Virus record (IMG/VR): IMGVR_UViG_3300023210_000011
Span: 62,001 to 126,000 of that record
Length of the DNA: 64,000 nucleotides
DNA from: a virus
Reading direction: 5' to 3' (one strand)
In this document: in pieces, positions 35,980 through 60,886 of the stretch
How positions within the stretch are numbered: the first letter of the stretch is position 1
Layout: the number at the start of each line of letters is the position of its first letter
Program-made: the position numbers and the translations under genes
Notes under the pieces: generated by a model
The model's input: only the letters and a program-made list of their open reading frames with translations
Databases searched by the model: none
What the model was told of the DNA's origin: nothing

Positions 35980-37001
35980 CCCCGGAATCCCTGGCCGCCT
36001 TCGTAGACGAGATGCAGAAGCTCTCAGAAATGCCCGCACCGGCTGCCAAGGAGGAAGATCGCGGTGGGGTCGTCAGTCGCGCACGTAGCTCTCTGAAGCG
36101 GCACGCAGGAGTCGGAACCCTCGCCATGGGAGGCCTGACCGCGGCGCTGGCTGCGAAGAACCCGCAGGCAGCCGGGAAGTTCTTTCGGCACGCCAAAGAG
36201 CTGGTGACGAAGCCGGGTAAGAGTCTCGCGCGCGGGTGGAAGTCTGGAAGGACAGACATCACCTCTGGAGCTGGGGCATCGGACGCTGCGTCGAAGCGGG
36301 TCGGCATGTACAAGGACACGTTCCGCAGTGCCGGAGATGGGCGACTCCTCCAGCATGACGTGCTCACTCAGAAGGACCCAGGGTTCTTGCGGCGGCAGAA
36401 CATCCTCGGCGTCGGAGAGCGCAGCAAAGAGGGCCTAAAGCTGAACAAGGCGCTGGCACAGCGGGTCAAGGAGACTCAGGGCAGGTTGGACGCTGGGGAG
36501 CGGATTCCGGAGAGTCAGTTGCGCGCACTCTACGACGAGATCGGCCAGGCTGGTAGCGCCCAGAAGCTCAAGCCGGCGGCGGGCCTGACGACGTACATGC
36601 CCGGAGAGAGGTCTGCTAACGTGGGCCTCGGGACCGTCGGAGGAGTGGCAGGAGGCCTCGAGTCGCACGATCCCGAGACGGGGCGTAAGCGTGGGGTAGG
36701 AGAGCGCCTGGCCCGTGGTGCTGCTGGGGCAGGCACCGCCATTGGGCTGGGACACATGTTCATGGGTCGAGGCACTGGGATGGACGCCGGGAACTTCATC
36801 CCCAAGAGCCTCCGGGCTAAGCTGCCGAAGACGTTCCGCGGTAACCAGATCCCCCTCACAGGGGATAGGTCGATGCTCTCCCAGAAGGGGCTGCTGCCGC
36901 TGGCCGCTGGCGGCGTACTCGCAGCAGGAGAGGGCGTAGCCGCAGATGCTGCAGGTGCGGGCGGGCAGTTGGTAGATCGGGCCTTCGGGCAGGGGGAGTA
37001 G
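35976..37001 (+). CDS. Glycine-zipper virion protein, candidate internal/ejection protein
   Basis: 341 residues, ATGA start, AGGAGG five bases upstream. A short N-terminal leader with EMQKLSEMPAPAA precedes a hydrophobic Ala/Gly stretch (LAMGGLTAALAAKNPQAAG). A second Gly/Ala-rich stretch lies at ~210-260 (VGLGTVGGVAGGLE, RGAAGAGTAIGLGHMFMGRG), and a third at the C-terminus (LPLAAGGVLAAGEGVAADAAG). Such glycine-zipper helices insert in or span membranes. Directly upstream of the portal, this fits proteins held inside the head and ejected with DNA. The role is inferred. Confidence 0.6.
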   Translation: MTPESLAAFVDEMQKLSEMPAPAAKEEDRGGVVSRARSSLKRHAGVGTLAMGGLTAALAAKNPQAAGKFFRHAKELVTKPGKSLARGWKSGRTDITSGAGASDAASKRVGMYKDTFRSAGDGRLLQHDVLTQKDPGFLRRQNILGVGERSKEGLKLNKALAQRVKETQGRLDAGERIPESQLRALYDEIGQAGSAQKLKPAAGLTTYMPGERSANVGLGTVGGVAGGLESHDPETGRKRGVGERLARGAAGAGTAIGLGHMFMGRGTGMDAGNFIPKSLRAKLPKTFRGNQIPLTGDRSMLSQKGLLPLAAGGVLAAGEGVAADAAGAGGQLVDRAFGQGE

Positions 37002-39065
37002 ATGTCGGTCTCAGGCGAGCTCAGTCGGTTCAATCCGCGTCGCGCCAGTGTGGACGGGAGCCGTGGATTCGGTATCCAATACCCGTCCCCCTTCTTCGAC
37101 ATCGCGCAGCAGTTCCTCCCGACGAACCAGCACCAGCTGCACAAGTGGTGTCGGTACTACTTCCTCACGAATCCGGTCATCAACGCCGCCTGCTCCAAGA
37201 TGGCCGAGTACCCGGTCACCCCTCTGGTGTTCGAGACAGAGGACCCGGAGCTCCAGAAGCTCGGACGCAAGGTCGAGGGGCAGCTCAAGCTGCGCTCGTT
37301 CCAGGTCGAGGTGGGCCTGGACTACTTCGTGTACGGCAACGCCTTCGTCTCGGTGTTCCTGCCGTTCGAGAAGTACCTCATCTGCTCGAGCTGCAAGGCC
37401 CGGTACCGGGCGAAGACGAACCGCTTCCGCTACACCTGGCGCAACTCCCGTTTCTACCTCAAGAAGTGCAAGTGTGGGCACGTCGGCTACGCCAAGCAGC
37501 ACGACGTCTACATGCGGAGCTTCCGGCAGATCAAACTGGTCCGCTGGAACCCCGAGAACATCACGATCAAGCACAACGAGATCACAGGGGAGACGAAGTA
37601 CTTCTTCAAGCTCCCCCGTGCGGTGCTCAATGACATCAAGCTGGGGGACAAGGACACCATCGAGACGCTGCCCATCGAGTTCCTCGAGGCGGCGCGGCGT
37701 CGGAAGTCTCTGCTCTTCTCGAAGGACAACCTGTACCACCTGAAGCGTCCGACCATCGCGCAGAAGGACCAGGGGTGGGGAACCCCCCTGATCTACCCGC
37801 TGCTGAAGGATGCGTACTACCTGCAGGTGATGAAGAAGGCGAACGAGGCAGTCCTCCAGGAGAGCATCGTCCCCCTCCGCATTCTCTTCCCGGGCCAGAG
37901 CACGGGAGGTAACGAGGGGCCGTACGGCGCGTACAACCTGACGAACTGGAAGAAGCGTGTTGATGAAGAGATCAACATGTGGAAGCGGGACCACAACTAC
38001 ATCCCTGTCCTTCCGGTGAACGTCGGCTTCCAGCAGATCGGCGGCCAGGGGCGCTCCCTCCTGCTCTACCAGGAGATGCGACTCCTCGCGGAGCAGATGC
38101 TGGCCGGTGCCGGCATCCCCGTAGAGTTCATCTTCGGCGGCCTCCAGTGGAGTGGGTCGAGTACCTCTCTCCGTGCCCTGGAGAACATGTTCCTGGGCTT
38201 CAACATGCAGCGGCATGAGCTCGTGAATGAGTTCATCCTCGGGAAGATCTTCTCCTTCATGGACTGGCCGAAGGTCCCTGCGCGGTTCGACAAGTTCCGC
38301 ATGGCCGACGATCTCCAGAGGAGCATGTTCTACCTGCAGCTCAACCAGGCACAGAAGATCAGCAACCGCCGGCTCATGGAGGAGGTCGGAGAGAACTTCG
38401 ACCTCGAGACCGAGCGCATGGAAGACGAGATCGCGACGCAGCTCCAGGCCAACCGCAAGATGCAGGTGGCTTCTGCCGACATCCAGGGCGAAGCCCAGCT
38501 GCGTGGATCCCGCTACCAGACCAAGGCCCAGGAGCTCCAGATGCGCTCCCAGGCCAAGGTACAGATGGAGATGCAGCAGGAGCAGATGCAGGCTCAGGCG
38601 GCCATGCAGGGCGGAGCTCCGGGGCAGCCTCCCCCACAGCAGCCCGCGCAGCCTCCACAGCAGCCTTCACAGCAGCCTCAGCAGGGCGGAGATCAGGCCC
38701 AGCAGACTGCAGGTCTCCCAGAAGGGGCCACGGCGTACGACGAGAACGCACAGAACCCCAACGCCACGGGCATGCCGGCAGCGATGGCGGGAATGCAGTC
38801 ACAGGTACAGCCCGGTGGAGGAGGCGTAGACCTCCGGTACATCGCGCAGCGAGCCGCGGCATTCCTGCGCACCGTGAAGGCTGAGCAGGGTGAGGAGGCG
38901 ATGTTCCAGTCTCTTGCGCAGATGCAGACCTCCAACCCCGCGCTCTACCAGCTGGTAGTCCAGCTAATGAATGAGACGGGGTCGAAGCAGGATCCGACAA
39001 ACGCGATGTCGAATCCTGCTCCGAATGGAACTCCGCAGGCCAGTGCGGGACGCCAGGTCGGCTAA
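37002..39065 (+). CDS. Portal protein with zinc-ribbon insertion and Gln/Pro-rich tail
   Basis: 687 residues; ATG one base after the previous stop, with GGGGGAG ahead. Portals form the dodecameric DNA entry ring. Portal-like features are the N-terminal clip/stem pattern (FLTNPVINAACSKMAEYPVTP, VGLDYFVYGNAFVSVFLPFEK), LVRWNPENITIKHNE, YPLLKDAYYLQVMKKANEA and LLAEQMLAGAGIPVEFIFGG. Unusual are Cys 128, 131, 156 and 158 (CSSC ... CKC), a probable zinc ribbon inserted in the wing, and a C-terminal ~130-residue region of Gln/Pro repeats (QQPAQPPQQPSQQPQQ). Its stop overlaps the stop of a convergent gene. Confidence 0.85.
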   Translation: MSVSGELSRFNPRRASVDGSRGFGIQYPSPFFDIAQQFLPTNQHQLHKWCRYYFLTNPVINAACSKMAEYPVTPLVFETEDPELQKLGRKVEGQLKLRSFQVEVGLDYFVYGNAFVSVFLPFEKYLICSSCKARYRAKTNRFRYTWRNSRFYLKKCKCGHVGYAKQHDVYMRSFRQIKLVRWNPENITIKHNEITGETKYFFKLPRAVLNDIKLGDKDTIETLPIEFLEAARRRKSLLFSKDNLYHLKRPTIAQKDQGWGTPLIYPLLKDAYYLQVMKKANEAVLQESIVPLRILFPGQSTGGNEGPYGAYNLTNWKKRVDEEINMWKRDHNYIPVLPVNVGFQQIGGQGRSLLLYQEMRLLAEQMLAGAGIPVEFIFGGLQWSGSSTSLRALENMFLGFNMQRHELVNEFILGKIFSFMDWPKVPARFDKFRMADDLQRSMFYLQLNQAQKISNRRLMEEVGENFDLETERMEDEIATQLQANRKMQVASADIQGEAQLRGSRYQTKAQELQMRSQAKVQMEMQQEQMQAQAAMQGGAPGQPPPQQPAQPPQQPSQQPQQGGDQAQQTAGLPEGATAYDENAQNPNATGMPAAMAGMQSQVQPGGGGVDLRYIAQRAAAFLRTVKAEQGEEAMFQSLAQMQTSNPALYQLVVQLMNETGSKQDPTNAMSNPAPNGTPQASAGRQVG

Positions 39066-39325
39066 TCCCACTGCGGTGGGTTGATCGCCCACTTGCGAGG
39101 CTTTGAGATCTGGATTCCTTCCAGCAGAGCCCCCAAGATCTTGGGGGCATGTTCCACGAAGCACGCCTCATGGAACATGACTTCGTGATCTCCCGTAGTG
39201 AACGTCTCTACTTCTGCGGTCCACCGCACGGCCCGTCGGAAAATCCGGTGTCGGGAGAGACAGAGGGCGGCCTCCCGCCGCACAATGTGAGCTCCGCAGT
39301 ACTCACAGTAGTAGCTGGGGGTCAC
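39062..39325 (-). CDS. Small Cys/His protein converging on the portal gene
   Basis: 87 residues from GTG 39325 (GTGA overlap). The N-terminus CEYCGAHIVRREAALCLSRH carries a CxxC and further Cys/His residues, a zinc-finger type; later VMFHEACFVEH may complete it. The stop TAG (39062-39064) overlaps the portal TAA (39063-39065). Two large inverted repeats lie within its coding sequence. It is the last of four tiny minus-strand genes. Function unknown. Confidence 0.6.
   Translation of the reverse strand: MTPSYYCEYCGAHIVRREAALCLSRHRIFRRAVRWTAEVETFTTGDHEVMFHEACFVEHAPKILGALLEGIQISKPRKWAINPPQWD
39129..39179. terminator. Two palindromes in the portal convergence, candidate bidirectional terminator
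   Basis: 39129-39148 is a perfect 20-base palindrome, GCCCCCAAGA joined to its complement; as RNA it forms a strong GC hairpin. Immediately after it, CATGTTCC (39148-39155) and GGAACATG (39172-39179) form a second perfect eight-base inverted repeat. Both lie 64 or more bases past the portal stop but inside the convergent coding gene. No T run follows on either strand. A terminator or RNA end-protection role is inferred from the position. Confidence 0.5.
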
Positions 39326-39651
39326 GGCATCACCGCCAGCAGGAAACTCGAGTAGTCTCCGCAGCCAGCACATTCTCCTGCGCCCCAAAAGGGGAGAGCC
39401 GGTAGGGCCCCCGCGCAGGCAGAGCACAACCACAGGGCATCGGGTACTTCCTCCTTCAACTCTGGGCAGCCCTTGCAGTCCATGTCCCCACAGCGTCCCT
39501 CTACGATCGGGCAGTATGCTGCGAGGATGTCCTCTTCTGCGGTTCGAGGGGCTATAGAAATCTCGGGAGGACGGAGAGAAAGCCCCTCGAGGCCGGCATC
39601 ACGCCGACCTCGAAGGACACTCTCCCGGGGCCTCCTACCCATCCTGGGCAT
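39322..39651 (-). CDS. Small multi-CxxC protein, unknown
   Basis: 109 residues from ATG 39651; ATG 39642 is an alternative start. The N-terminus is very basic (MPRMGRRPRESVLRGRR) and the second half has Cys pairs CGDMDCKGC, CSAC and CAGC, enough for two zinc ions. The product resembles a rubredoxin-like or zinc-ribbon protein in spacing only. It overlaps the preceding tiny gene by 17 bases and the next by four. Confidence 0.55.
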   Translation of the reverse strand: MPRMGRRPRESVLRGRRDAGLEGLSLRPPEISIAPRTAEEDILAAYCPIVEGRCGDMDCKGCPELKEEVPDALWLCSACAGALPALPFWGAGECAGCGDYSSFLLAVMP

Positions 39652-39742
39652 CGTCCAAGTCCTCGATGTGATCCTCGAAGACGTCAGACGATGTTCTCAC
39701 GGCGGCAGCAATCACTGCCGCCCAGAAGGCCCACGTCAGCAT
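39635..39742 (-). CDS. Possible 35-residue membrane peptide
   Basis: ATG 39742 follows a GGGGAGGG ribosome-binding site by about seven bases. The product MLTWAFWAAVIAAAVRTSSD plus 15 acidic residues has a single hydrophobic helix and a charged tail, like small inner-membrane phage peptides. It is too short for normal gene finders. The good ribosome-binding site and the close spacing to its neighbours are the only support. Confidence 0.45.
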   Translation of the reverse strand: MLTWAFWAAVIAAAVRTSSDVFEDHIEDLDDAQDG

Positions 39743-39743
39743 C

Positions 39744-39827
39744 TCAGAGCCCTCCCCAATCATCGGGCCACTCCGGCTCGATGGGCTGGGGGTCGGGATC
39801 GGTCTTGGTACGCTGCTGCTTGATCAT
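39744..39827 (-). CDS. Possible 27-residue peptide, first of the short minus-strand operon
   Basis: ATG 39827 has GGAG seven bases upstream and the stop ends two bases before the next ATG. The product MIKQQRTKTDPDPQPIEPEW plus seven residues is charged and Pro-rich. It could be a leader peptide rather than a functional protein. Confidence 0.35.
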   Translation of the reverse strand: MIKQQRTKTDPDPQPIEPEWPDDWGGL

Positions 39828-39859: not shown

Positions 39860-39868
39860 TGTTATACT
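39860..39868 (+). promoter_or_regulatory. Extended -10-like promoter before the RNA polymerase gene
   Basis: TGTTATACT is an extended -10 box (TG, one base, TATACT) of the sigma-70 type. A start about seven bases downstream would give a ~21-base leader containing GGAG seven bases before the GTG at 39896. Read on the other strand the same bases give TATAAC in front of the short minus-strand operon, so it may fire both ways. It stands out as AT-rich in a GC-rich genome. Confidence 0.55.
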
Positions 39869-39895
39869 TATGGCCTCGATCTGTGGAGTATTTAG

Positions 39896-42800
39896 GTGTC
39901 CAATCTGAACCCTGAAGCAGCCCACCGCTCCCTGGTCCAGAAGACCAAAGAGGCGATCTCCTCTCACTTTCCGATTGAGGGCAGGAAGCACCGCCTGGAG
40001 CTCCTCTCTCTCGTCATTGAGGAAGGGCCGAAGTTCAGTTCGGCCAACTACGAGTCCCAGGCGGGCGCGCGACTGACGGGGAAGACCTGGGGACCGGACA
40101 TCAAGGCGAAGTTCCGCCTGGTGGACATCGAGACCAAGAAGGTTCTGGACGAGAAGACCCGGACGATCGGCACTCTGCCCAAGATCACCACTCGGTACAG
40201 CTACATCGTAGCAGGCAGCGAGCGGCAGTTCGATGGGGTGTTTCGGCTGAACCCCGGTGCCTACCACGCAGAGGCCAGCAACGGCGACCTCCTCGCGAAG
40301 TGGAATGTCGCTGCTGGGTCAAAGATCGGGTCCTTCAAGATCTTCATCGAGCGGAAGGACCCGAAGAAGGTCGGGCGCATGCACCTGATCGTGAAGAGCG
40401 GGGATGCGTCCACCGTGAAGATCGCGATCTACCCGGTGCTCAAGGCCATGGGCATCAGCGATGAGCAGATGAAGTCCAAGTTCGGAGAGAAGATCTTCGA
40501 GGCCAACAGGGCTGCGGCAAAGCCCGGAACCCTGCAGCGGTTCCACAAGGCGATCGAGAACCGGAAGAAGTCTCAGGACTACAAGCCCCCGCCCCCAGCA
40601 GAGGCTGCCCAGTTCGCCAAGCAGGTGTTTGAGGGAGCCGAAGTCAGCGCCGACACGATGCAGTCCGCGCTGGGCAAGAAGTTCGAGAAGATCTCCGGGG
40701 AGGCCCTGCTCCTCTCCGCGGCGAAGCTGGTGGGGATCAGCAAGGGTCGCGTGAAGGAGGACGATCGACAGTCCCTCTCGAACAAGCGCCTCTTCGGGGC
40801 CGAGGATTTCATCCACGAGCATCTGACGAAGGGCGCCAACATCTACTCGTTGCAGCGGAAGATTCGCAACAACGTCGATCGCCGCGATCGCATCTCGGAG
40901 ATCATCCCCGCACCTGGCGTGGGGTACGGCGCGGCCATCCTGTCGAAGTTCAAGGCGGGACAGCTCCCCACCCAGACGAACCCCCTGCAGTTCGTCTCGA
41001 ACCACACGAAGACCACGATCCTCGGAGCGGAGTTCGGCGGCATCAAGGGCGACAACGTCAACATGATGCAGGACAAGCTGATCAACCCGAGTCACCTCGG
41101 GCTCCTCGATCCGCTTCAGACCCCTGAGAACTCCGCCACTGGCGTAGTCCTCCATGTACCTCTCGGCGCCAAGAAGAAGGGCCACCGGCTGATGGCGCAG
41201 GTCATCAACGTGAAGACCCGTCGGGTCGAAGAGAAGAGCGCCGCCGAGCTCGAGAACGCGGTGGTCGCTTACCCAGACCAGGTCAAGGTCACGAAGAAGG
41301 CCGACGGCACGTACAGCCTGAAGCCTCGGTTCTCGAATGTCGTTGTCTACGACGACGAGCGCAACACCTCCAAGCGCCCATGGAATCAGGTCCAGTACGT
41401 GCTCCCCTCGGCTCGGAACCTCTTCGCGATCAGCGCCAACCTGGTGCCGTTCATCCAGAACGACAACGGCAACCGTGCGATGATGGCCGCCAAGCACCAG
41501 GAGCAGGCCGTGGGGCTCCAGAAGCGGGAGGCCCCACTGGTACAGTCAGTCCAGAAGGGGAAGGCCTCCTACGAGCGCCTGGTGGGCGCCATGGCCGCTA
41601 TCACAGCGGTCACGGATGGGACGGTCTCCTCTGTCTCCAAGAAGGCCATCGTGGTGAAGGGCCCGGACGGCAAGGCCTCGAAGTACCCCCTGTACGATCA
41701 CTACCCGCTGAACGGCGCGAAGCACATGATGCACTCCACCCCTCTGGTAGAGGTGGGGGACAAGGTCAAGCGCGGCCAGGTCATCGCGGACTCCAACTTC
41801 ACCCACAAGGGCACCCTGGCCCTGGGTACCAACCTGCGTGTGGCCTACATCCCGTACAAGGGCCTGAACTTCGAGGATGGCATCGTCATCTCGGAGAGTG
41901 CCGCGTCCAGCCTGGTGTCCAGTCACCTGCACAGCGTCGAAGTCGAGATGACGCCGAACGTGGTGGTGAACCGGAAGCTGTGGCGGCAGTACGCTGGGGC
42001 GATCAAGGCCACTCCTGAGGCGCTTCGGAAGCTGGATGAGAATGGCGTGATCAAGAAGGGGACCCGGGTTCAGCCCGGAGATGTCCTGATCGCGAAGCTG
42101 CGCAAGCAGGACAACACCAAGGAGACCCAGGTAGTCAAGGCCGCGCTGAAGAAGGCGATCCGGGACTACGTCGATGCCGCTGAGATCTGGGATCACGAGT
42201 ACGGCGGCACAGTCGTTCGCGTGGTGAACACCGGGAAGAAGCTGGCGGTCTACGTCCGGACTGAGCAGACGATGGAGATCGGGGACAAGCTCTCAGGTCG
42301 ACATGGCAACAAGGGCATCGTCACCAAGATCCTCCCCGATGACCAGATGCCGCGGGACAAGAGCGGGAAGCACGTCGAGGTTCTCCACAGCCCGGCGGGC
42401 ATCCCCTCACGCATGAACGTCGGACAGGTCCTCGAGACCGCAGCGGGCAAGATCGCGAAGAAGACGGGCAAGCCCTTCCTGGTTGAGAACTTCGACCCGG
42501 ACAAGGACTACAGCCAGTTCGTGAAGGACGAGCTCAAGAAGCACAAGCTCTCGGACACCGAAGAGCTCTTCGATCCGGAGACGGGGGAGAGCCTCGGTCA
42601 GATCTTCACGGGGTTCCAGTACACGCTGAAGCTGGACCATCAGGCGGAGAAGAAGGTCACGGCTCGCGCTGGTGGATTCGGGTACAAGTACCGTCCCACT
42701 GGGGAGGCAGCTCAGGGCTCTGGCGTCGGGCAGGGAGGCCAGCGCATTGGTGGCCTGGATCTGTACTCCATGCTGGCTCACGGAGCTGTACACAACCTTC

Positions 42801-45800
42801 GGGAGATGCAGACCTACAAGTCTGACCGAGAGCAGGCCGAGGATGTGTGGCTGCGGATCATGCGGGGAGAGCGCCCGCCGCCCCCGAAGGTCCCCCGCTC
42901 CATGGTCCACTTCCAGCACTACCTCCGTGCGATGGGGGTGAGTACATCCGAGAAGGGTGGAAAGTACAGCCTCATGCCCATGACGGATGCCCAGGCCGTT
43001 GCCCAGAGCAGTGGTCAGCTCACCCTCCCAGAGAAGACGCTCGCGGCCAAGGGCTCGCTGACTCGAGAGGAGCGGGGCGGCCTCTTTGACCGCGGCAAGA
43101 CCGGAGGGCTTGACGGCCGGAAGTGGAGTCACATGGACCTGGGCATGCGCGTGCCCAACCCGGTCTTCGAAGAGCCTGTCCGGCTGCTGCTCCGGATGAA
43201 GAAGCCCGAGTTCCGGAAGCTCCTGTCCGAGTCCGGTGCGCAGGGTCGCAAGTCCGGCTTCACGATCATCGAGGAGAAGCTCCGCGCGTTGAACGTGGAC
43301 ACTGAGCTCAAGAAGAGCGAGAAGTCCCTGACGGATGCGAAGAAGGGCAAGCTCAACGTGGAGTACAAGCGTGTTCGCTATCTCCGCGCCCTGAAGAAGC
43401 TGAAGCTGAAGCCGATCGACGCGTACACCAACCGTGTGATCCCGGTGCTTCCTCCGCAGCTCCGGAAGGTGAGCATCGGCTTTGACGGCACGCAGATCAT
43501 CGACCCCGTCAACCAGATGTACGCCATCACCGGGTCTATGGTGAGGCAGCTCAAGAACGCGGAGAAGGAGCGTCTGCCGGTGGGGGACATCCAGAAGCTC
43601 CAGGCGGAGATCTACACGACCGTCAAGGCGCTGCGCACAACCGGGATGACGCTCGAGGGCAAGCAGCTCCCGAGTCTGATGGACAAGCTTTCGGGGGCGA
43701 GCAGCCAGCCGAAATATTCGTTCTTCCAGACGGGCGTACTCGGCAAGCGTCAGGATCTCTCTGGTCGCTCTGTGATCACACCAGATCCAGACCTCCCGCT
43801 GGATGAGGTCGGGGTCCCCCGCTCCATGGCCATGGAGATGTACAAGCCGTTCGTCATCCGGGAGCTCTGGCGCCGCATGGGGCGCGCGCGTACTCCACGA
43901 GAGGCGCGGGAGATGATCAAGAAGAACCACCCCGCCGCCAACGAGGCGCTGGCCCGCGTGGTGAAGGACCGTCCCGCGATCATGAAGCGGGACCCCGCCC
44001 TTCACATGTTCTCGATGATGGCCTTCCGCCCGAAGATCGTAGAGGGCCGCTCCATCAAGATCCATCCCCTGGTCGTCGGAGGCTTCAACGCTGACTTCGA
44101 TGGGGACACCATGGCCATGTACGTCCCGATCTCAGACAAGGCGGTGGAAGAGGCGAAGGGCATGCTCCCCTCGAAGAATCTCTTCTCGCCCACTTCTGGC
44201 AACCTGATGGTCGCCCCGAGCCAAGATGGCGTCCTGGGGATCTACCAGGCGACCCGCTGGGGGAAGAAGAAGTCCGGATCCTTCACGCAGGAGGAGGCCC
44301 TCAAACTCATGAAGCAGGGCAAGCTGAAGTCCTACGATGTGATCTCAGTCAAGGGGATGACGAAGCCCACCACCCCGGGCCGCCTGGCGCTGAACAAGAC
44401 GCTCCCCGCGGAGTTCAAGGGAGATGCCGAGCTCCTGCATGACCCCAGCTTCCGCATGGCCAAGGGGAAGATGAAGGGTCTCGCTACGCGGGTCGCTCGA
44501 GCGCACCCAGGTGAGTTCGCCTCGATGATCGATCAGTGGAAGACGCTGGGGCACAATCTGGCCTACAAGAACGGGTCGAGCGTCAGCCTCAACGACTTCC
44601 ATGACGGCTTCAAGCTCCGAGATGAGCGCCTCAAGAAGTACCAGGTGAAGGAGCGGGAGATCCGCAAGGGCTCCGGCAGCCAGAAGGAGAAGGACCAGAA
44701 GATCGTCAACCTGTACCGCAAGGCGCAGACAGAGCTCCGTGAGGTCGGCACCGCTCGGTACAACCGCACGGACAGCAACCGCATGTGGGACTGGGCGCAG
44801 AGCGGGGCGAAGGGCAACTGGAACCAGTTCGGCCAGCTCGTGATGGGCCCGATCTTGGTCCAAGATCCGATGAACAAGGAGGTCCCGTTCCCGATCGTGA
44901 AGTCGTTCGGAGAAGGCCTCCCCATCTCCCAGTATTGGGCATCCCTGCATGGAGCGCGGAAGGGAACCATCGACCGCGCGAGCGCGACGGCGAAGCCTGG
45001 CGCGCTCACCAAGGAGCTTATCAACACGGTCATCGACCAGACGATCAAGTCGGAAGACTGTGGCACCACGAAGGGCACCCTCCTCCCCGTGACGGATGCA
45101 GATGTTGGCGGCCGCTACCTGGCTGCTGATGTCCCCCTGAAGGGCGGCGATTCCCTCAAGAAGGGCACGCTCATCACTGAGCCCCTCCGCACGCGCCTCA
45201 AGAACTCGGGCCCCAAGAAGGTGCTGGTCCGGTCTCCCCTGGCCTGCAAGGAAGTGAAGGGGATCTGCGCCACCTGCTACGGGCTGAGCGAGCGCGGGAA
45301 GAACTACAAGGTCGGCACCAACGTCGGGGTCATCGCGGGGCACGCCCTCGGAGAGCCCATCACCCAGATGCAGATGCGGACGTTCCACACAGGTGGTGTG
45401 GGCGGTGCGGGAGATGTCGGAGACTACTTCACCGCGGCGGAAGACCTCCTCAAGGTCCCGAAGAAGCTGCGCGGTGAGGCGACGCTGGCGACCGTGTCGG
45501 GCCGCGTAGAGAAGATCATGAGCGACGCCCTGGGTGGAAAGATCGTGACGATCACTGGGAAGCAGCACACGGTCCCGCACACCAACCAGCTCCTCCCCAA
45601 GATTCGGGTAGGCGCGGAAGTGAAGAAGGCGGAGGCCCTCTCCACAGGCAGGAAGAACCCGAACCACATCCTCGAGATCACAAAGAGCATGGGTGCGGTT
45701 CGGAACCACCTGACGGAGAACCTGAACAGCCTCTACGTGGAGACCACAGGGAACGAGCGGAGGCGCAACATCGAGACGGTGATCCGGGCGATGACCGATC

Positions 45801-46222
45801 TCACCAAGGTGAACAACCCCGGTGACGCCCCCAACATCCTGCGCGGGCAGATGCTCCCTCTGAGTGAGGTCGAGAACCTGAACAAAGACCTGCGCCGGGC
45901 AGGCAGGAAGGAGATCACCCACAGCCCCACGCTCAAGCCCCTCAACCAGGCTCCGCTGGCAGGGTCAGAGGACTGGATGGCGCGGCTCAACTTCCAGCGG
46001 CTGAAGGAGACGTACGTGGAAGGAGGGGCCCAGAACTGGGTCTCTGACATCCACGGCCACCCCATCCCCGGAGCTGCCCACGGTGCTTCCTTCGGGCTCA
46101 CTCCGCCGTCCCCCGCTACAATGCCCAAGTCGGCCCCCAAGCCACTTCCTGTCTCGCGGCCTGCGCCCCAAAAGAAGGCCCCGGCCTCGCCACCCTCCAG
46201 GTTCTCATTCTTCGGGAAATGA
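39896..46222 (+). CDS. Single-chain multisubunit-type RNA polymerase (fused beta and beta-prime)
   Basis: 2108 residues from GTG 39896 with GGAG seven bases upstream. It is a complete DNA-dependent RNA polymerase core. Beta part: YIPYKGLNFEDGIVISE (from 651), GDKLSGRHGNKG (796-807), HSPAGIPSRMNVGQVLET and GGQRIGGLDLYSMLAHG (from 947), ending near 1015. Beta-prime part: SHMDLGMRVPNP (from 1078), LGKRQDLSGRSVI (1282-1294), catalytic NADFDGD (Asp 1400, 1402, 1404), SPTSGNLMVAPSQDGVLGIY, zinc ligands C1722, C1784, C1791 and C1794 with bacterial-type spacing, and IAGHALGEPITQMQMRTFHTGG. The N-terminal beta-prime zinc finger is absent, and the total is about 640 residues shorter than E. coli beta plus beta-prime. 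The C-terminus is Pro-rich. It lies between portal and spike genes, which suggests late expression or packaging in the virion. Confidence 0.97.
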   Translation: MSNLNPEAAHRSLVQKTKEAISSHFPIEGRKHRLELLSLVIEEGPKFSSANYESQAGARLTGKTWGPDIKAKFRLVDIETKKVLDEKTRTIGTLPKITTRYSYIVAGSERQFDGVFRLNPGAYHAEASNGDLLAKWNVAAGSKIGSFKIFIERKDPKKVGRMHLIVKSGDASTVKIAIYPVLKAMGISDEQMKSKFGEKIFEANRAAAKPGTLQRFHKAIENRKKSQDYKPPPPAEAAQFAKQVFEGAEVSADTMQSALGKKFEKISGEALLLSAAKLVGISKGRVKEDDRQSLSNKRLFGAEDFIHEHLTKGANIYSLQRKIRNNVDRRDRISEIIPAPGVGYGAAILSKFKAGQLPTQTNPLQFVSNHTKTTILGAEFGGIKGDNVNMMQDKLINPSHLGLLDPLQTPENSATGVVLHVPLGAKKKGHRLMAQVINVKTRRVEEKSAAELENAVVAYPDQVKVTKKADGTYSLKPRFSNVVVYDDERNTSKRPWNQVQYVLPSARNLFAISANLVPFIQNDNGNRAMMAAKHQEQAVGLQKREAPLVQSVQKGKASYERLVGAMAAITAVTDGTVSSVSKKAIVVKGPDGKASKYPLYDHYPLNGAKHMMHSTPLVEVGDKVKRGQVIADSNFTHKGTLALGTNLRVAYIPYKGLNFEDGIVISESAASSLVSSHLHSVEVEMTPNVVVNRKLWRQYAGAIKATPEALRKLDENGVIKKGTRVQPGDVLIAKLRKQDNTKETQVVKAALKKAIRDYVDAAEIWDHEYGGTVVRVVNTGKKLAVYVRTEQTMEIGDKLSGRHGNKGIVTKILPDDQMPRDKSGKHVEVLHSPAGIPSRMNVGQVLETAAGKIAKKTGKPFLVENFDPDKDYSQFVKDELKKHKLSDTEELFDPETGESLGQIFTGFQYTLKLDHQAEKKVTARAGGFGYKYRPTGEAAQGSGVGQGGQRIGGLDLYSMLAHGAVHNLREMQTYKSDREQAEDVWLRIMRGERPPPPKVPRSMVHFQHYLRAMGVSTSEKGGKYSLMPMTDAQAVAQSSGQLTLPEKTLAAKGSLTREERGGLFDRGKTGGLDGRKWSHMDLGMRVPNPVFEEPVRLLLRMKKPEFRKLLSESGAQGRKSGFTIIEEKLRALNVDTELKKSEKSLTDAKKGKLNVEYKRVRYLRALKKLKLKPIDAYTNRVIPVLPPQLRKVSIGFDGTQIIDPVNQMYAITGSMVRQLKNAEKERLPVGDIQKLQAEIYTTVKALRTTGMTLEGKQLPSLMDKLSGASSQPKYSFFQTGVLGKRQDLSGRSVITPDPDLPLDEVGVPRSMAMEMYKPFVIRELWRRMGRARTPREAREMIKKNHPAANEALARVVKDRPAIMKRDPALHMFSMMAFRPKIVEGRSIKIHPLVVGGFNADFDGDTMAMYVPISDKAVEEAKGMLPSKNLFSPTSGNLMVAPSQDGVLGIYQATRWGKKKSGSFTQEEALKLMKQGKLKSYDVISVKGMTKPTTPGRLALNKTLPAEFKGDAELLHDPSFRMAKGKMKGLATRVARAHPGEFASMIDQWKTLGHNLAYKNGSSVSLNDFHDGFKLRDERLKKYQVKEREIRKGSGSQKEKDQKIVNLYRKAQTELREVGTARYNRTDSNRMWDWAQSGAKGNWNQFGQLVMGPILVQDPMNKEVPFPIVKSFGEGLPISQYWASLHGARKGTIDRASATAKPGALTKELINTVIDQTIKSEDCGTTKGTLLPVTDADVGGRYLAADVPLKGGDSLKKGTLITEPLRTRLKNSGPKKVLVRSPLACKEVKGICATCYGLSERGKNYKVGTNVGVIAGHALGEPITQMQMRTFHTGGVGGAGDVGDYFTAAEDLLKVPKKLRGEATLATVSGRVEKIMSDALGGKIVTITGKQHTVPHTNQLLPKIRVGAEVKKAEALSTGRKNPNHILEITKSMGAVRNHLTENLNSLYVETTGNERRRNIETVIRAMTDLTKVNNPGDAPNILRGQMLPLSEVENLNKDLRRAGRKEITHSPTLKPLNQAPLAGSEDWMARLNFQRLKETYVEGGAQNWVSDIHGHPIPGAAHGASFGLTPPSPATMPKSAPKPLPVSRPAPQKKAPASPPSRFSFFGK

Positions 46223-53521: not shown

Positions 53522-55426
53522 GTGGGCTTCACTGGAATCATGGGCGGCGGAGCTGCGATCGTCCCCAGAGAGGGGGCGGATCTCCAGGTGTCCACCCTCG
53601 GGCCCCATGCGATTGCCACGCCGGCAGGCTCGCTGGGGACGTTCAACGGATGGACGGCCACCGTCGTTCCGGCGGCCAACGATCCTGCATTCCCGAATGG
53701 GACGACAACCGGGGCCGTCGTCATCGCGGATGCCGCTGCGTCCAGCACGACCATCACCCTTCCGGGGCCTGGCTACTATGAGCTGGAAGCGGACATCGGC
53801 GGTGAGATCGAGACGCTGGGAATCTACTGCACTCGTCCGCTTCCGCAGCTTGCTGTGGCAGGCCGTACGAATGCCGAAGCGTTCAACTCCGCGGCCGGCG
53901 CGCGCTCTGCCACGCTCTCCGACTCCGGAGGGTCCGACAGCCCCGCGCACAGCACTGTGGCCGCCCAGGGCTCCGACGGAGCCCCCCTCACGGTGACGGG
54001 CAGCACGACGGCGTCTCCGTCGTGGACCAACCCGTCGACTGCCACAGGCGACGGGGTGCAGCTGTCGCATGTGCTGACCGACGCGTACGGGCGTGTCAGT
54101 GTGTTCGCGTACTCCGAGCGCATCGCGGGCGCGGGCGGCGGGAGCAGCCTCGATCCTGACGCAAACACGCCATCCATCCTCGAGCTGAATGTCTCTGCCT
54201 CGCCCTCGGGCACGACGGTCGGGTCTGTCGCATTCCGCGGCCCCGTGGACGCGGACGGGGCCACGCTCGGCGGTGCGGATGCTTCATCCTTCACGGTGTC
54301 TGGCAACGGCGACGGCAGCTTCGACATCGTGGCCGCCACAGACCTCACCGAGGCGACGCGCATCATCACGGCGACGGTGGGTGGCTACACGACCGGCAAC
54401 ATCGAGATCCAGACGTACCCGGACACCGCCACGCTGCTCACGGCTGTCACCTCAGACGGCGAGACCCTCTGGAGGCACGGCGGTGGCTCGTGGACCGTCC
54501 ACGAAACGTGGTCAGGACAGAACCTCCTGGGCATCGACACCAGCGAGGACGGCAACCTCCTCTCGTTCCTGTGCCGCTTCGATCAGACAACCGGTGTGGA
54601 CACCGCCCAGACCACGGACCTCGTCACTCCGTCCTGGGGCGGGAACACCAACATTGGTGGCACCAGCTATGCCACGCAGACCGTCTATATCGACAGCGTG
54701 AACGGGTACGCGCTGACCGGTCACAACAATGGGCGCGGCAGGTACAAGTCCATCGCGGACGTGCTCGCCGACGGGAACTTCAACAGCTCGGTCGAGATGA
54801 GGTTCAACTCCGGCGGCCACTGGACTGGCAACAACTACTCCCTGGCTGACGACTTCCTCACCCTCGCCAGCGGGCGCATGCTCGCATGCGGGTGGCACTG
54901 GAACAGCGGCAACGGTCAACCTCACCTCTCGACGAGTGATACCGGCCCCGGCGGGACATGGACCGAACGCGCCATCGGTACGTGGACAGTCGGGTTCCCG
55001 CGAATGATGGCAACAGATGGCACGCTGATTGTCGTCGTTGGAGGCTCATCGACCTGGGGTGTCCTGGGCTACTCCGCCGACAGCGGGACCACCTGGGCCA
55101 CGGGCGGCGCCATTGCCGGAACCAACTTCTATGCCGTGGCGTGCAAGCCAGATGGCAGCCTGTGGGTTGCTGTTGGGGCTTCAGGCGCCGTTGCCACGAC
55201 CGCAGACCCCACCCTGCTATCGTGGGATCTGCGCACCAGTGGCACGGCCGAGGATCTGCGTGGCGTGGCGTGGGACGCCTCCGCAGGCGAGTTCGTCGCC
55301 GTCGGCACGACCCAGACGGTGATCACGTCGTCCGACGGCATCACCTGGACGGCGGAGACACTGCCGGCCGGGGTGAACGGGACGATCAACGCTATCCGCG
55401 CGCGCACCACAGCCGCACCGACGTGA
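53522..55426 (+). CDS. Surface protein with C-terminal beta-propeller (BNR/Ycf48-like repeats)
   Basis: 634 residues from GTG (AGGAGG five bases upstream). Residues ~1-300 are Ser/Thr/Gly-rich beta domains, including a cadherin/Ig-like segment (SILELNVSASPSGTTVGSVA). Residues ~300-634 have repeated propeller blades, with Asp-box-like turns SADSGTTW and SSDGITW and blade strands such as YAVACKPDGSLWVAVG and GVAWDASAGEFVAVG. Such propellers occur in sialidase-like and glycan-binding phage proteins. No catalytic Arg triad is evident, so binding is more likely than hydrolysis. It could be a head fibre, decoration or receptor-binding protein. Confidence 0.65.
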   Translation: MGFTGIMGGGAAIVPREGADLQVSTLGPHAIATPAGSLGTFNGWTATVVPAANDPAFPNGTTTGAVVIADAAASSTTITLPGPGYYELEADIGGEIETLGIYCTRPLPQLAVAGRTNAEAFNSAAGARSATLSDSGGSDSPAHSTVAAQGSDGAPLTVTGSTTASPSWTNPSTATGDGVQLSHVLTDAYGRVSVFAYSERIAGAGGGSSLDPDANTPSILELNVSASPSGTTVGSVAFRGPVDADGATLGGADASSFTVSGNGDGSFDIVAATDLTEATRIITATVGGYTTGNIEIQTYPDTATLLTAVTSDGETLWRHGGGSWTVHETWSGQNLLGIDTSEDGNLLSFLCRFDQTTGVDTAQTTDLVTPSWGGNTNIGGTSYATQTVYIDSVNGYALTGHNNGRGRYKSIADVLADGNFNSSVEMRFNSGGHWTGNNYSLADDFLTLASGRMLACGWHWNSGNGQPHLSTSDTGPGGTWTERAIGTWTVGFPRMMATDGTLIVVVGGSSTWGVLGYSADSGTTWATGGAIAGTNFYAVACKPDGSLWVAVGASGAVATTADPTLLSWDLRTSGTAEDLRGVAWDASAGEFVAVGTTQTVITSSDGITWTAETLPAGVNGTINAIRARTTAAPT

Positions 55427-56667: not shown

Positions 56668-56967
56668 CTACAAGAGGTCAAAAGGGCTGTTGTCCTGCAC
56701 GGGACCCAGCCCTTTGATGAAGATCAGCGCCCGGAAGTCCCACTTCTTCCAGGTTGACTTCCGGTAGACCGCGTCGTTGGCCTCGCACCATTCCGAGAGG
56801 AGGGACCTAAGAAAAGGTACTTCTTCTTTGCGGATCCACCGCTTGAGCCGCAGGTGGACCACCCAGCGAAGGGGGTCCACCTGCGGCTTCAGTTCCCACG
56901 AGTAGAGGTCACCAAGTAGAGATCTCCGGAAGCTGGCTTCCGCCTGCTCCGACCAGCGTAGGCTCAT
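56668..56967 (-). CDS. Small protein, unknown
   Basis: 99 residues from ATG 56967; ATGs 12-15 codons further upstream are possible but overlap the preceding gene more. The sequence is Trp/Arg-rich (LDPLRWVVHLRLKRWIRKEE-type segment, WKKWDFRALIFIKGLG). It overlaps the 3' end of the 214-residue gene by 59 bases and converges on the glycine-zipper gene with a seven-base gap. No family recognised. Confidence 0.5.
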   Translation of the reverse strand: MSLRWSEQAEASFRRSLLGDLYSWELKPQVDPLRWVVHLRLKRWIRKEEVPFLRSLLSEWCEANDAVYRKSTWKKWDFRALIFIKGLGPVQDNSPFDLL

Positions 56968-57553
56968 CGGGAGACTCACTGGGGGACTGGTCGTTGACGA
57001 CATACTTCCCATGGTAGCCCACCTTGAGCGGCCAGACGCTCCCCAGGGGGAGCACCTCGCTCAGGTTCCCGATGAGCTCCCGGACCAGGATCCCCCAGCG
57101 GCCATCCTCCGGGATCTCCTCTCCGATGAGATCTTGGAGGACCCCTTCGATGTTCTCCTCCCGGATTTCCTGCACCAGTGCGGGGACCACCGAAGAGCCG
57201 AACTTGTCGGTGATCTCCGCTGCCGCCCAGAGCTGGATCCCGTGCTTCTTGTGGTAGGTCACCCGCCACCCGCGACAGATGCCGGTGGTCTCATCCCCCG
57301 CCGTCTGCCGGTGGTGACGGTGCAGCGCCTTGCGGCGGTAGTACTCTGCGACCATGCAGGACCCGAACTTCGTCGGATCCTGCGCCTTCTCGGTGAGGGC
57401 GCCCTGCAGGGCGCCCAGCTCTCCCGTGCTGTGGATGCACGTGTGCAGCTTTCCGCTGCGGTCCTCCACTACGAGGGCGAGCATGTGCTCGCCCGTATTC
57501 CTGATGGCGCGCACCTCTGCGCCGACCACCAGGACACTCAAGTCATCATTCAT
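56909..57553 (-). CDS. Unknown protein divergent from the terminase gene
   Basis: 214 residues; ATG with GGAGG eight bases upstream. N-terminal beta-type region (LSVLVVGAEVRAIRNTGEHM, LALVVEDRSGKLHTCIHSTG) resembles a small barrel or OB-like fold. The middle has HRHHRQTAGDETTGICRGWR with clustered His/Arg, and ITDKFGSSVVPALVQEIREE follows. I cannot assign a family. Being divergently transcribed from terL with an early-type arrangement, it may be regulatory. Confidence 0.6.
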   Translation of the reverse strand: MNDDLSVLVVGAEVRAIRNTGEHMLALVVEDRSGKLHTCIHSTGELGALQGALTEKAQDPTKFGSCMVAEYYRRKALHRHHRQTAGDETTGICRGWRVTYHKKHGIQLWAAAEITDKFGSSVVPALVQEIREENIEGVLQDLIGEEIPEDGRWGILVRELIGNLSEVLPLGSVWPLKVGYHGKYVVNDQSPSESPDEPTLVGAGGSQLPEISTW

Positions 57554-57576: not shown

Positions 57577-57604
57577 TCTTCCGAAAGCGTTATGCCGGAT
57601 TTCT

Positions 57605-59320
57605 ATGAGTTTTTCCAAAGACCATTCGGGGCCATGGGAGTACCAGGCGCCGCGTAGGGAGAGGCAGAAGTCGGCAGATCTACGCCGTGCGCCGATCCCC
57701 GTGCGTCCCTCCGAGTTCGTCGAGACCACGGTTCTCATGCCGGACGCGCACACCCGGTCCCTCACGAACTTCTCGTTCGCAGAGCGGGGGTACCTTCGGG
57801 AGATCTACGACATCCAGGCACCCCGCACGTTGCTGATGTGCGGCAGACAGGTCGAGAAGAGCACGACGCTCGGCAACAAGATGCTGGCCTACTCGTGTCT
57901 CATCCCCCACTTCAAGGTTCTCTACGTCTCGCCCTCGAGCACGCAGACGAAGGAGTTCTCGAAGACGCGGCTGAAGGAGTCGATCGATACGTGTCCAGAT
58001 CTACGGACCTGGTTCCCGTCGCACCTCACGGACAACGTCTTCGAGAAGAAGGCGATCAACCGTAGCAAGCTCACCCTGCGGTACGCCTTCCTCAACGCTG
58101 ACCGGTGCCGTGGGCTGTCCGCCGATCTCATCGCGATGGACGAGTTTCAGGATCTCCTGCTCGACAACATCCCGGTCATCGAAGAGGCCGCATCCCACAG
58201 CCCCTTCAAGTGGTTCATCTACAGCGGCACCCCCAAGTCGCTGGACAACCCCATCCAGGTCTACTGGGACTCGTATTCGACGAAGAACGAGTGGGTGGTG
58301 CCTTGTGATAGGCATGGCCTCCCCAACAACCCCGGGTCGTGGCACTGGAACATCCTGGGGGAGAAGAACATCGGCCTTCGAGGCCTCTCCTGTGATCGGT
58401 GTGGGGAGCCCATCCACGCGAACCACCCGATGGCTCAGTGGATCCGGACCGGCAACCCGAACCCGAAGTTCGACACCTTCGAGGGCTTCCGCATCCCTCA
58501 GTTGATGGTGCCCTGGATCTCTTGGAGCAACATTCTAACGAAGTACAACGGGTACTCGAGAGGCAAGTTCTACAATGAGGTCCTTGGCCAGAGCTTTGAC
58601 TCCGGCCAGCGCCCCCTGACGCAGAGCGACGTCCAGGCGAACTGCGACCCCGAATTCAGCATGGCCGCGGACAAGCTGAAGGAGGCGATGGGCAAGGTCC
58701 GGGGCAAGAAGGTCTACGCTGGGATCGACTGGGGGCAGGACAGCAACAACTCGTACACGATCTTGATGATCGGTGCGTACATCGACGGGTTCTTCCGCAT
58801 CATCTTCTCGCACAGATTCAGCGGTGCGGAGGCGGAGCCGAAGGAGCAGATCACCAAGATCAAGAAGCTCCTCAAGGCGTTCAATATCGACCGAGTGGGG
58901 GTCGATTACGGTGGAGGCTACTGGCCGAATGATGAGCTCTTGCGGACGTACGGATCCCAGCGCGTCGTCAGGTACCAGTACTCCACTCCGAAGACGATCA
59001 TGAAGTACGACTCCTCGAAGGGGCGCTTCCTGATTCACCGCTCTGAGGTGATGAGCGCGGTCTTCAACGCCATCAAGCGGCGGTCGGTCTTCCGATTCCC
59101 GAAATGGTCGGAGTTCCGGAGCCCCTTCGCGTCGGACATGCTGGCGATCTTCTCTGAGTACAACGAGCGCACGCGGATGACGGAGTACCGGAAGTCTCCG
59201 AACACCACGGATGACTCCTTCCACGCCCTGCTGCTCTGTTTCATCGTCTCCATGATCGACAACCCGCGTCCGGACATCCTGGTACCGAGTGCTAAGATCG
59301 ATCGGGAACTGGATGACTGA
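57605..59320 (+). CDS. terL: Terminase large subunit
   Basis: 571 residues. It powers DNA packaging and cuts the concatemer. The ATPase has GRQVEKST (80-87) as Walker A; Glu replaces the usual Gly, a variant that still keeps Arg, Gln and Lys. Walker B is LIAMDEFQD with D179 and E180, and YSGTPKS fits the coupling motif. A Cys pair CDRCGEPIH with a nearby Cys-x2-His forms a possible zinc site between domains. The RNase-H-like nuclease begins at GIDWGQDSNNSYTIL and continues with VDYGGGYWPND and a C-terminal DDSFHALLLC. It is a single gene flanked by minus-strand islands; no obvious small subunit is adjacent in the same strand. Confidence 0.93.
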   Translation: MSFSKDHSGPWEYQAPRRERQKSADLRRAPIPVRPSEFVETTVLMPDAHTRSLTNFSFAERGYLREIYDIQAPRTLLMCGRQVEKSTTLGNKMLAYSCLIPHFKVLYVSPSSTQTKEFSKTRLKESIDTCPDLRTWFPSHLTDNVFEKKAINRSKLTLRYAFLNADRCRGLSADLIAMDEFQDLLLDNIPVIEEAASHSPFKWFIYSGTPKSLDNPIQVYWDSYSTKNEWVVPCDRHGLPNNPGSWHWNILGEKNIGLRGLSCDRCGEPIHANHPMAQWIRTGNPNPKFDTFEGFRIPQLMVPWISWSNILTKYNGYSRGKFYNEVLGQSFDSGQRPLTQSDVQANCDPEFSMAADKLKEAMGKVRGKKVYAGIDWGQDSNNSYTILMIGAYIDGFFRIIFSHRFSGAEAEPKEQITKIKKLLKAFNIDRVGVDYGGGYWPNDELLRTYGSQRVVRYQYSTPKTIMKYDSSKGRFLIHRSEVMSAVFNAIKRRSVFRFPKWSEFRSPFASDMLAIFSEYNERTRMTEYRKSPNTTDDSFHALLLCFIVSMIDNPRPDILVPSAKIDRELDD

Positions 59321-59781: not shown

Positions 59782-60171
59782 CTACCCTCGCTTCTGCTTC
59801 TGTGTGGTGATGAATCCCGCCTTGAGGACCGCGTGAAGCGTCCTCGGGGGGCGGGGATCGATGCCGTGGCTTTCTGCCAGGGCGTGTGTGTGCTGCTCCA
59901 TGATCCCCACGACGTGGTCGACGATGCTGTCGAGCCACGCGGTGATGATCTTCTCCGTGTTCTCCGGATTCTCCAGGCAGGCCGCCAGGAGGTCTCCCGC
60001 CGGCTTGCCCGGGAGGAAGAGGACCTCGAACGGTCCCATCATCGACGCCATCTGGAGGGCGTTCCGCTCCAGCACGGCAACCCGCGCCTCGAGGAGCGCA
60101 CTCTTCTCCTTCTCTTTCTCGAAGAGGCCCTCAAGGGCCTCCACCCGTGCCGTCAGGGTCACTTTGGGCAT
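59782..60171 (-). CDS. Coiled-coil protein, unknown
   Basis: 129 residues; ATG preceded by AAAGGAGG seven bases upstream, the strongest ribosome-binding site seen in the window, so it is probably abundant. Residues ~5-42 form a clear coiled coil (VEALEGLFEKEKEKSALLEA, VAVLERN). The remainder is helical (DLLAACLENPENTEKIITAW, VDHVVGIMEQHTHALAESHG). It lies between the HTH protein and the glycine-rich protein. A scaffolding or small-terminase-like oligomer is conceivable; nothing proves either. Confidence 0.6.
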   Translation of the reverse strand: MPKVTLTARVEALEGLFEKEKEKSALLEARVAVLERNALQMASMMGPFEVLFLPGKPAGDLLAACLENPENTEKIITAWLDSIVDHVVGIMEQHTHALAESHGIDPRPPRTLHAVLKAGFITTQKQKRG

Positions 60172-60205
60172 TAGGTACCTCCTTTGCCACAGAGGTTATG
60201 GCCGT

Positions 60206-60886
60206 TTATTCCCCGAATTTTACTCTGTGAAAGAGGTCCTCCTTCACAGTCGCGCCTTCTCGAAACTCCGGAGGCAGCGCCCCCTTGAGTTCGCGGTAGA
60301 CGAAGCAGGAAATTCGCAGCCGGCGGCGCGCGTCTGCCAGCAGTTTGTGGACTTCCTGCGCAGCGAGGGAGTTCTTGTAGTCCGCCCTCGCCACGACCTC
60401 GGAGATCATCCGGCTGCTCAGGCGCAGGAGCTCCACCCACGCGGTCGGATGCCCCGCCCTCTCGAAGACCGCGAGGTCTTCCTCATCTGCGCGACCGAAG
60501 ATGTCGGCCCAGCTCTCCAGGTCTCTCAGGGTGTACGACCCTTGGGGACGCGCAGCCTGATCTCGGAGCAGTCCCATCACGGCATTGGCGTAGTCCGGGG
60601 TCATCCCCAGCTTGGCGTTCCGTAGATCCAAGATCTGCTGGACCACAGCCATCTGGGATTCCAATCGCCGCACTTTCGCGCGCAGCGTTCGGATCTCCGC
60701 CAACTTCGGCCGCTCCAGCATCCCCTCTGTCTTGAGCTCATGGACCTCTTCGGGGTCCAGGTGCTGGCGCCGCCCAGACCGCTGGCTCGACAGCTGGCCC
60801 GAGTTGATGTAGTTGCGTATAGTACGCTCGGAGCGACCCAGAACGCGCGCAGCTTCTGAGATCGTCATTGTATACTGAGTGCCCAT
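60206..60886 (-). CDS. Helix-turn-helix DNA-binding protein (MerR/excisionase-like N-terminus)
   Basis: 226 residues from ATG 60886 (GGGGAG close upstream); an ATG six codons later is possible. Residues ~6-50 are an excisionase/MerR-type winged HTH (TISEAARVLGRSERTIRNYI, SGQLSSQRSGRRQHLDPEEV). A coiled-coil stretch (LAEIRTLRAKVRRLESQMAV) and a helical C-terminal domain follow. Its 5' end overlaps the TGTATACT box of the divergent head operon, so it could repress that operon and itself. Because it stands near terL, a small terminase subunit is an alternative, less likely given the HTH type. Confidence 0.7.
   Translation of the reverse strand: MGTQYTMTISEAARVLGRSERTIRNYINSGQLSSQRSGRRQHLDPEEVHELKTEGMLERPKLAEIRTLRAKVRRLESQMAVVQQILDLRNAKLGMTPDYANAVMGLLRDQAARPQGSYTLRDLESWADIFGRADEEDLAVFERAGHPTAWVELLRLSSRMISEVVARADYKNSLAAQEVHKLLADARRRLRISCFVYRELKGALPPEFREGATVKEDLFHRVKFGE
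60869..60876 (+). promoter_or_regulatory. -10-like promoter box of the head operon
   Basis: TGTATACT lies 29 bases before the ATG at 60905; a start near 60883 would give a ~22-base leader. It overlaps the first codons of the divergent HTH gene. No -35 consensus is visible at 17 bases. Confidence 0.45.

Follow-up and report, generated by a model that had tools for sequence, protein, structure and literature searches.

The 64,000-nucleotide (nt) stretch analysed here (the window) comprises bases 62001-126000 of the IMG/VR virus record IMGVR_UViG_3300023210_000011 (131,435 bases), and it carries a gene that encodes the beta and beta-prime subunits of a cellular-type RNA polymerase (RNAP) as one continuous chain. 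The record is probably incomplete because its end falls inside a gene matching the capsid gene of Salmonella phage Arash. It holds 1 match to the RNAP domain RNA_pol_Rpb2_6. Genes were called with our own codon-score script rather than a published gene finder. The features of the RNAP gene, all on the plus strand, are as follows.

39885..39888, plus strand: ribosome-binding site GGAG, 7 nt ahead of the GTG start (from the sequence)
39896..46222, plus strand: fused beta-beta-prime RNA polymerase gene, 2108 amino acids (aa) (open frame, Pfam, homologues with the same frame)
42287..42313, plus strand: two lysines of the beta barrel, K798 and K806, equivalent to K1065 and K1073 of E. coli beta and invariant in the fused, split and bacterial rows of the alignment
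42941..42985, plus strand: beta/beta-prime junction, about residues 1016-1030 (residue 1016 corresponds to beta 1336, residue 1025 to beta-prime 3)
44087..44107, plus strand: NADFDGD active-site motif, residues 1398-1404 (alignment)
44912..45022, plus strand: bridge-helix region (about residues 1673-1709, aligned to residues 765-801 of E. coli beta-prime)
45059..45277, plus strand: second zinc site, C1722/C1784/C1791/C1794 (alignment with E. coli C814/C888/C895/C898)
45350..45397, plus strand: initial portion of the trigger loop at about residues 1819-1834, where Q1824 and H1831 align with Q929 and H936 of E. coli

The frame opens with GTG and runs uninterrupted through 2108 codons, and the Pfam domains follow one another along the chain in the order RNA_pol_Rpb2_6 (3e-63), Rpb2_7 (4e-6, which is below the Pfam cut-off), Rpb1_2 (7e-32), Rpb1_3 (1e-9) and Rpb1_5 (5e-23). 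The single frame of beta followed by beta-prime reported in a first-pass annotation of the window was thus intact. An identical frame was present on 2 other contigs, and frames of similar length that were 70-72% identical occurred at 9 further loci, which ruled out an assembly artefact as the source of the fusion. Relative to one homologue (L009), changes amounted to 0.51 at third codon positions versus 0.24 and 0.16 at the other two, a pattern that is purifying.

About 1995 residues of the chain could be aligned to E. coli beta and beta-prime, with no strong reduction and almost no linker at the junction. Every catalytic residue checked was retained in the 17 fused and 18 split rows of the alignment; those conserved relative to E. 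coli were beta R678, D814, K1065, K1073 and R1106, and beta-prime R425, R780, Q929, H936 and the D460/D462/D464 triad, with which NADFDGD aligns. The positions given earlier for NADFDGD and for the second zinc site proved exact. The accompanying claim of a full set of beta-prime motifs stood for the catalytic residues and the second zinc site but not for the zinc ribbon at the beta-prime N-terminus (E. coli C70/C72/C85/C88): in the alignment the whole lineage lacks it, the deletion falling between residues 1074 and 1075. Likewise, R275, E295 and A302, through which the clamp helices of bacterial enzymes contact sigma, were not conserved in the aligned RNAP. Several positions of the rifampicin pocket were changed (E. 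coli numbering: D516T, H526N, R529K, S531T, N568A), and resistance to rifampicin is therefore expected.

Two scans of IMG/VR identified 38 loci at which beta and beta-prime form one intact frame of 2098 aa or more, a number that includes near-duplicates such as L007/L008 and L023/L032. Matching RNAPs were also found in isolates, namely Salmonella phage Arash and Vibrio phages D69, D148 and D181; a two-chain enzyme was confirmed for Arash and D69, and D148 and D181 are known by tblastn matches. In Arash and D69 and, judging by the tblastn matches, in D148 and D181, one chain consists of beta plus the first part of beta-prime and is annotated only as 'beta' or 'hypothetical'. With these deposited phages carrying a beta-beta-prime-N chain and the 38 IMG/VR loci, the initial suggestion that the fusion stands alone was not supported. 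Two-chain loci are cut at residue 1487/1488, past the active-site barrel (E. coli beta-prime ~552), and three-chain loci have a second cut at about residue 1113/1125. Large 'phage' matches in Enterococcus and Staphylococcus wastewater records and in Salmonella and Acinetobacter contigs were bacterial or apparently bacterial and were left uncounted; two records labelled as phages (L004 and L005; OR846602 and OR844998) hold complete bacterial rpoB-rpoC that scores about 1885 bits against TIGR02386, and both are probably contigs of bacteria.

Four of the 38 fused frames were longer (2476-3249 aa), and intein-size inserts were located in three of these. Intein-like insertions of 334-428 aa were seen inside the fused RNAP at L044, L045, L052 and L041, some of them with LAGLIDADG-like motifs. 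L044 (10001-19750) has three, after residues 411, 1404 and 1831; L045 and L041 have one each, directly behind the NADFDGD motif, and L052 has a single one after residue 810. At L041 (9989-17381) the fused-type RNAP is split into two overlapping frames just past the active-site insert. The L038 frame is about 350 aa longer than expected.

No alpha gene was found in 30 records (29 of them of the RNAP lineage) and no omega gene in 20, with the positive-control genomes scoring in both searches. A sigma factor with region 3 was present in 26 of the 29 lineage records. The sigma of the present phage (270 aa; bases 54128-54940 of the record, outside the window) had FliA/WhiG as its best NCBIfam match, as did Arash Gp10, both matches lying far under the curated cut-offs. 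Arash also encodes a second, RpoD/RpoS-like sigma (gp196; L165:2657-3694), which occurs in other split-type phages too and may serve a later gene class; a region-2 match was present in 12 of the 30 records.

Two further genes of the window match Arash genes.

37002..39065, plus strand: gene for the 687-aa portal protein, the neighbour that precedes the RNAP gene (Arash portal Gp204 matched at 30% identity, E-value 7e-87)
57701..59320, plus strand: large terminase gene (29% identity to the Arash terminase; PF05876)

The portal gene had matches in 18 of 20 target sets and the portal-RNAP neighbourhood was conserved. The earlier description of a near-complete cellular-type single-chain core within a phage structural module was upheld, the RNAP lying downstream of the portal gene. 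Most relatives have the two genes nearly adjacent; about 4.8 kb separates them at L024 (5215-10001). Portal, terminase, capsid and sigma genes are homologous between Arash and the present phage. A 958-aa SNF2-type helicase at L089:16877-19753 (record 36877-39753) is 40% identical to Arash Gp217, which adjoins beta-prime-C and was detected in the virion at a similar per-residue count; a constant partnership of this helicase with the RNAP was rejected, as it is present in only 8 of 20 records.

In the published virion proteome of Arash, the RNAP protein Gp206 exceeded every other protein in number of spectra, the capsid protein included; Gp216 and the sigma Gp10 were detected, and the second sigma Gp196 and the terminase were unlisted (PMC10585845). 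From these data we calculated 2.31 spectra per residue for Gp206, 2.00 for Gp216, 2.00 for Gp10, 1.51 for the portal protein and 4.34 for the capsid protein. As evidence for specific packaging of the RNAP this is strong but not conclusive, because 116 proteins were detected in the preparation, primase and ligase among them, and carry-over is offered by the authors as an alternative (PMC10585845). One might suppose that the RNAP is not a virion protein at all and is made after infection for later genes, the signal in the Arash particle being carry-over of an abundant protein, as the many replication enzymes in that preparation could indicate. We consider this unlikely: Gp206 gave more spectra than even the capsid protein, per-residue counts were similar for Gp206, Gp216 and Gp10 while the second sigma and the terminase went unlisted, and the RNAP gene adjoins the portal gene. 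By analogy with Arash, the RNAP and its sigma are probably packed in the particle of the present phage.

A candidate promoter emerged from de novo word counts upstream of genes, where GGCATAA was seen 12 times versus 0.26 expected. Across the whole record G[GC]CATAA occurred at 24 places outside called genes, all on the minus strand, and at 1 inside genes. AA stood at -18/-17 in 23 of these 24 sites, though it had not been selected for, and most had T then a purine at 13 and 14 bases from the start of the motif. The bipartite pattern AAW-N15-GSCATAA had 21 matches in the record and its reversed-pattern control 0; one 20-kb stretch contained 11 (0.01 expected from shuffles) and the window contained 3 (0.04 expected).

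57590..57614, minus strand: AAW-N15-GGCATAA, 37 nt before the gene at 56909-57553 (minus strand) (pattern)
60196..60220, minus strand: AAW-N15-GCCATAA before the gene at 59782-60171 (minus strand) (pattern)
39868..39892, minus strand: motif copy directly upstream of the RNAP start, oriented away from it towards the portal gene (pattern)

For the last of these, antisense control or expression of a small gene (39635-39763) is possible. Replication genes in the window were without the motif, and the minus-strand genes that bear it are presumably early, judging from their position and type. Over 20 records the bipartite pattern was strand-coherent in the present phage (0 and 21) and in G003 (0 and 8), with reversed controls at 0. 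Unbiased counts gave the variants GTCATAA in G001, GG[CG]ATAAG in G005 and GGTATAA in Arash, where 17 of the 18 non-coding copies lay on the minus strand, most copies preceding an annotated gene by 28-56 nt, and where the spacing to TR equalled that in the present phage. The layout is that of sigma-70-family promoters and resembles sigma-28 promoters, which agrees with the FliA-like phage sigma.

The same likeness to the sigma-28 class would suit a different arrangement, in which the host RNAP reads these promoters by means of its own sigma-28 or the phage sigma, leaving other genes to the phage RNAP; phage sigmas that redirect the host enzyme are well known (PMC7824862). This we think rather improbable, since the sigma co-occurs with the phage RNAP and both were detected in the Arash particle. 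The altered clamp-helix residues would also fit a dedicated partner, without proving one.

The history of the chain was examined in trees built with FastTree (53 sequences) and IQ-TREE (34 sequences, the source of the maximum-likelihood supports), which were concordant in topology; both are limited by few bacterial phyla, long branches and models that are not site-heterogeneous. With a bacterial outgroup, IQ-TREE placed the one-chain forms together with an ultrafast bootstrap (UFBoot) of 97 and the cut forms together with 100, the three-chain forms being nested within the two-chain forms (UFBoot 100). In three-chain phages the 'beta' gene retains the first 85-100 residues of beta-prime, which points to fission of a fused gene and not to an original two-gene state. 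Most simply, therefore, the one-chain state would be ancestral in the phage lineage and the Arash/D69-type enzymes would be products of its fission, the simplest order of events being one fusion, one cut and a second cut. It could instead be argued that beta and beta-prime fused on more than one occasion and that the fused state seen here is derived, as the rooting relies on distant bacteria and long branches; we regard this as distinctly improbable given the beta-prime remnant on the three-chain beta gene and the fact that every other lineage member seen has beta-beta-prime-N on a single chain.

The lineage fell outside all sampled bacteria, in agreement with the proposal in the first-pass annotation of a separate viral RNAP lineage: identity to each compared bacterium was 27% versus 55% between bacteria, and a beta-prime tree separated it from bacteria and likewise from three phages, the T4-like Rhizobium phage RHph_TM61, Cobetia phage Carin-5 and Yersinia phage GN1. 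Nesting inside one bacterial genus, which would have indicated recent capture of a host gene, was seen for none of the sampled bacteria; this sampling excluded the Helicobacter and Wolbachia fusions. It is barely credible that the gene is a bacterial rpoB-rpoC fusion that was captured recently or is decaying, for although natural bacterial fusions are known (none among the sampled sequences), the identities and the separate branch, the lineage-wide loss of zinc ribbon 1, the purifying pattern and the intact frame on many contigs all speak against it. As judged from sequence comparison, the enzyme was not taken recently from a host, nor is it an isolated case. Carin-5 and GN1 (L118 and L119) represent another phage RNAP branch with beta-prime ahead of beta, and in Carin-5 a gene annotated as a sigma adjoins the RNAP genes. 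No relatives of the Rhizobium phage beta-prime were found in the IMG/VR search.

Taken together, we think it likely that the gene encodes a packaged, sigma-directed, single-chain RNAP that reads early genes without alpha or omega, and that the one-chain form is ancestral. The fused chain would probably fold both barrels without an alpha scaffold, with the covalent linkage taking over the role of the alpha dimer in uniting the two barrels and no host alpha being borrowed; RNAP activity is predicted from the sequence. The enzyme would bind the phage FliA-like sigma, be packed in the virion and be ejected along with the DNA, after which the sigma would direct it to AAW-N15-GGCATAA-N6-TR promoters ahead of the minus-strand, presumably early genes. 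The broader proposition, of an autonomous virion-packaged, sigma-dependent, one-chain RNAP without alpha or omega in a deep lineage, ancestral and with the multi-chain enzymes of its relatives as fission products, appears to us somewhat probable. Several points weigh against this proposal besides the mixed content of the Arash preparation: the promoters could also serve host RNAP, exact matches to the motif are few or lacking in several fused-clade records and in many of the 20 records, the bacterial sampling in the trees is small, and the AlphaFold models are too weak to display an assembled two-barrel core. Those models (residues 490-1689 and 1011-2108) were moderate, with predicted template modelling (pTM) scores of 0.38 and 0.33, and Foldseek ranked bacterial beta-prime first (1e-29), yet with a TM score of about 0.2; in view of these low values no conclusion on assembly is based on them.

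Phage beta/beta-prime enzymes (PMC7481178, PMC7598289) and reduced single-chain RNAPs (PMC10770324) are already known. The literature searched, which left most subscription papers outside, yielded no description of a one-chain beta-beta-prime phage RNAP of full size, nor of its fission products, sigma or promoter. A natural full-size RNAP without alpha and omega would make the purpose of the alpha platform testable with one gene. If the sigma is indeed packed with the RNAP, the particle would contain a packaged holoenzyme; the published virion enzymes of the phiKZ/AR9 type are without a sequence-level sigma homologue. On the origin of split phage RNAPs published views diverge (introns, a cyanobacterial origin, relics from before the last universal common ancestor), and the fission scar, which orders one chain, two and three, offers a route to them. 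The cultured members Arash and D69 permit immediate tests.

Among known systems, the bacterial rpoB-rpoC fusions of Helicobacter and Wolbachia have the same beta/beta-prime order, in enzymes with alpha and omega. RHph_TM61 (beta-prime), Carin-5 and GN1 have cellular-type phage enzymes like the present one, but encoded by separate genes and on other branches. The RNAP matched bacterial beta chains with E-values of about 1e-77 versus 4e-21 for 7s00_C, which we take to be the AR9 enzyme. The phiKZ/AR9 RNAPs likewise have no alpha or omega and exist in a virion form, and their post-barrel split resembles that of Arash, but they consist of at least four chains, are very divergent and have no sequence-level sigma (PMC7598289); the present RNAP is one chain and much closer to the bacterial enzymes. 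In P23-45 gp96/gp64, crAss-like phi14:2 gp66 and YonO both barrels also lie on one polypeptide, and P23-45 gp96 is a virion enzyme; these proteins are, however, strongly reduced and hardly alignable (PMC10770324), whereas the present chain is near-complete and has a separate sigma. The mReC enzymes (Weinheimer and Aylward 2020, PMC7481178) are similar in that phage beta and beta-prime can be aligned to bacterial ones, carry NADxDGD and form a deep separate branch; they differ in being described as two subunits, fusion being mentioned for crAssphage only. The mReC capsid family PF07068 was found in 0 of 14 lineage records, with a positive in RHph_TM61, and the mReC terminase family PF03237 was unmatched by the window terminase, for which PF05876 was the sole match; some mReC contigs may nonetheless belong to the fused-RNAP lineage. 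The closest relatives are Arash and D69, whose RNAPs resemble the present one over nearly the whole chain at about 30% identity, with the same portal-RNAP order, but are made as two chains cut past the active-site barrel. Fusion and promoter are undescribed in the Arash paper (PMC10585845); Arash shares with the present phage homologous terminase, capsid and sigma and the same type of one-strand GGnATAA promoter.

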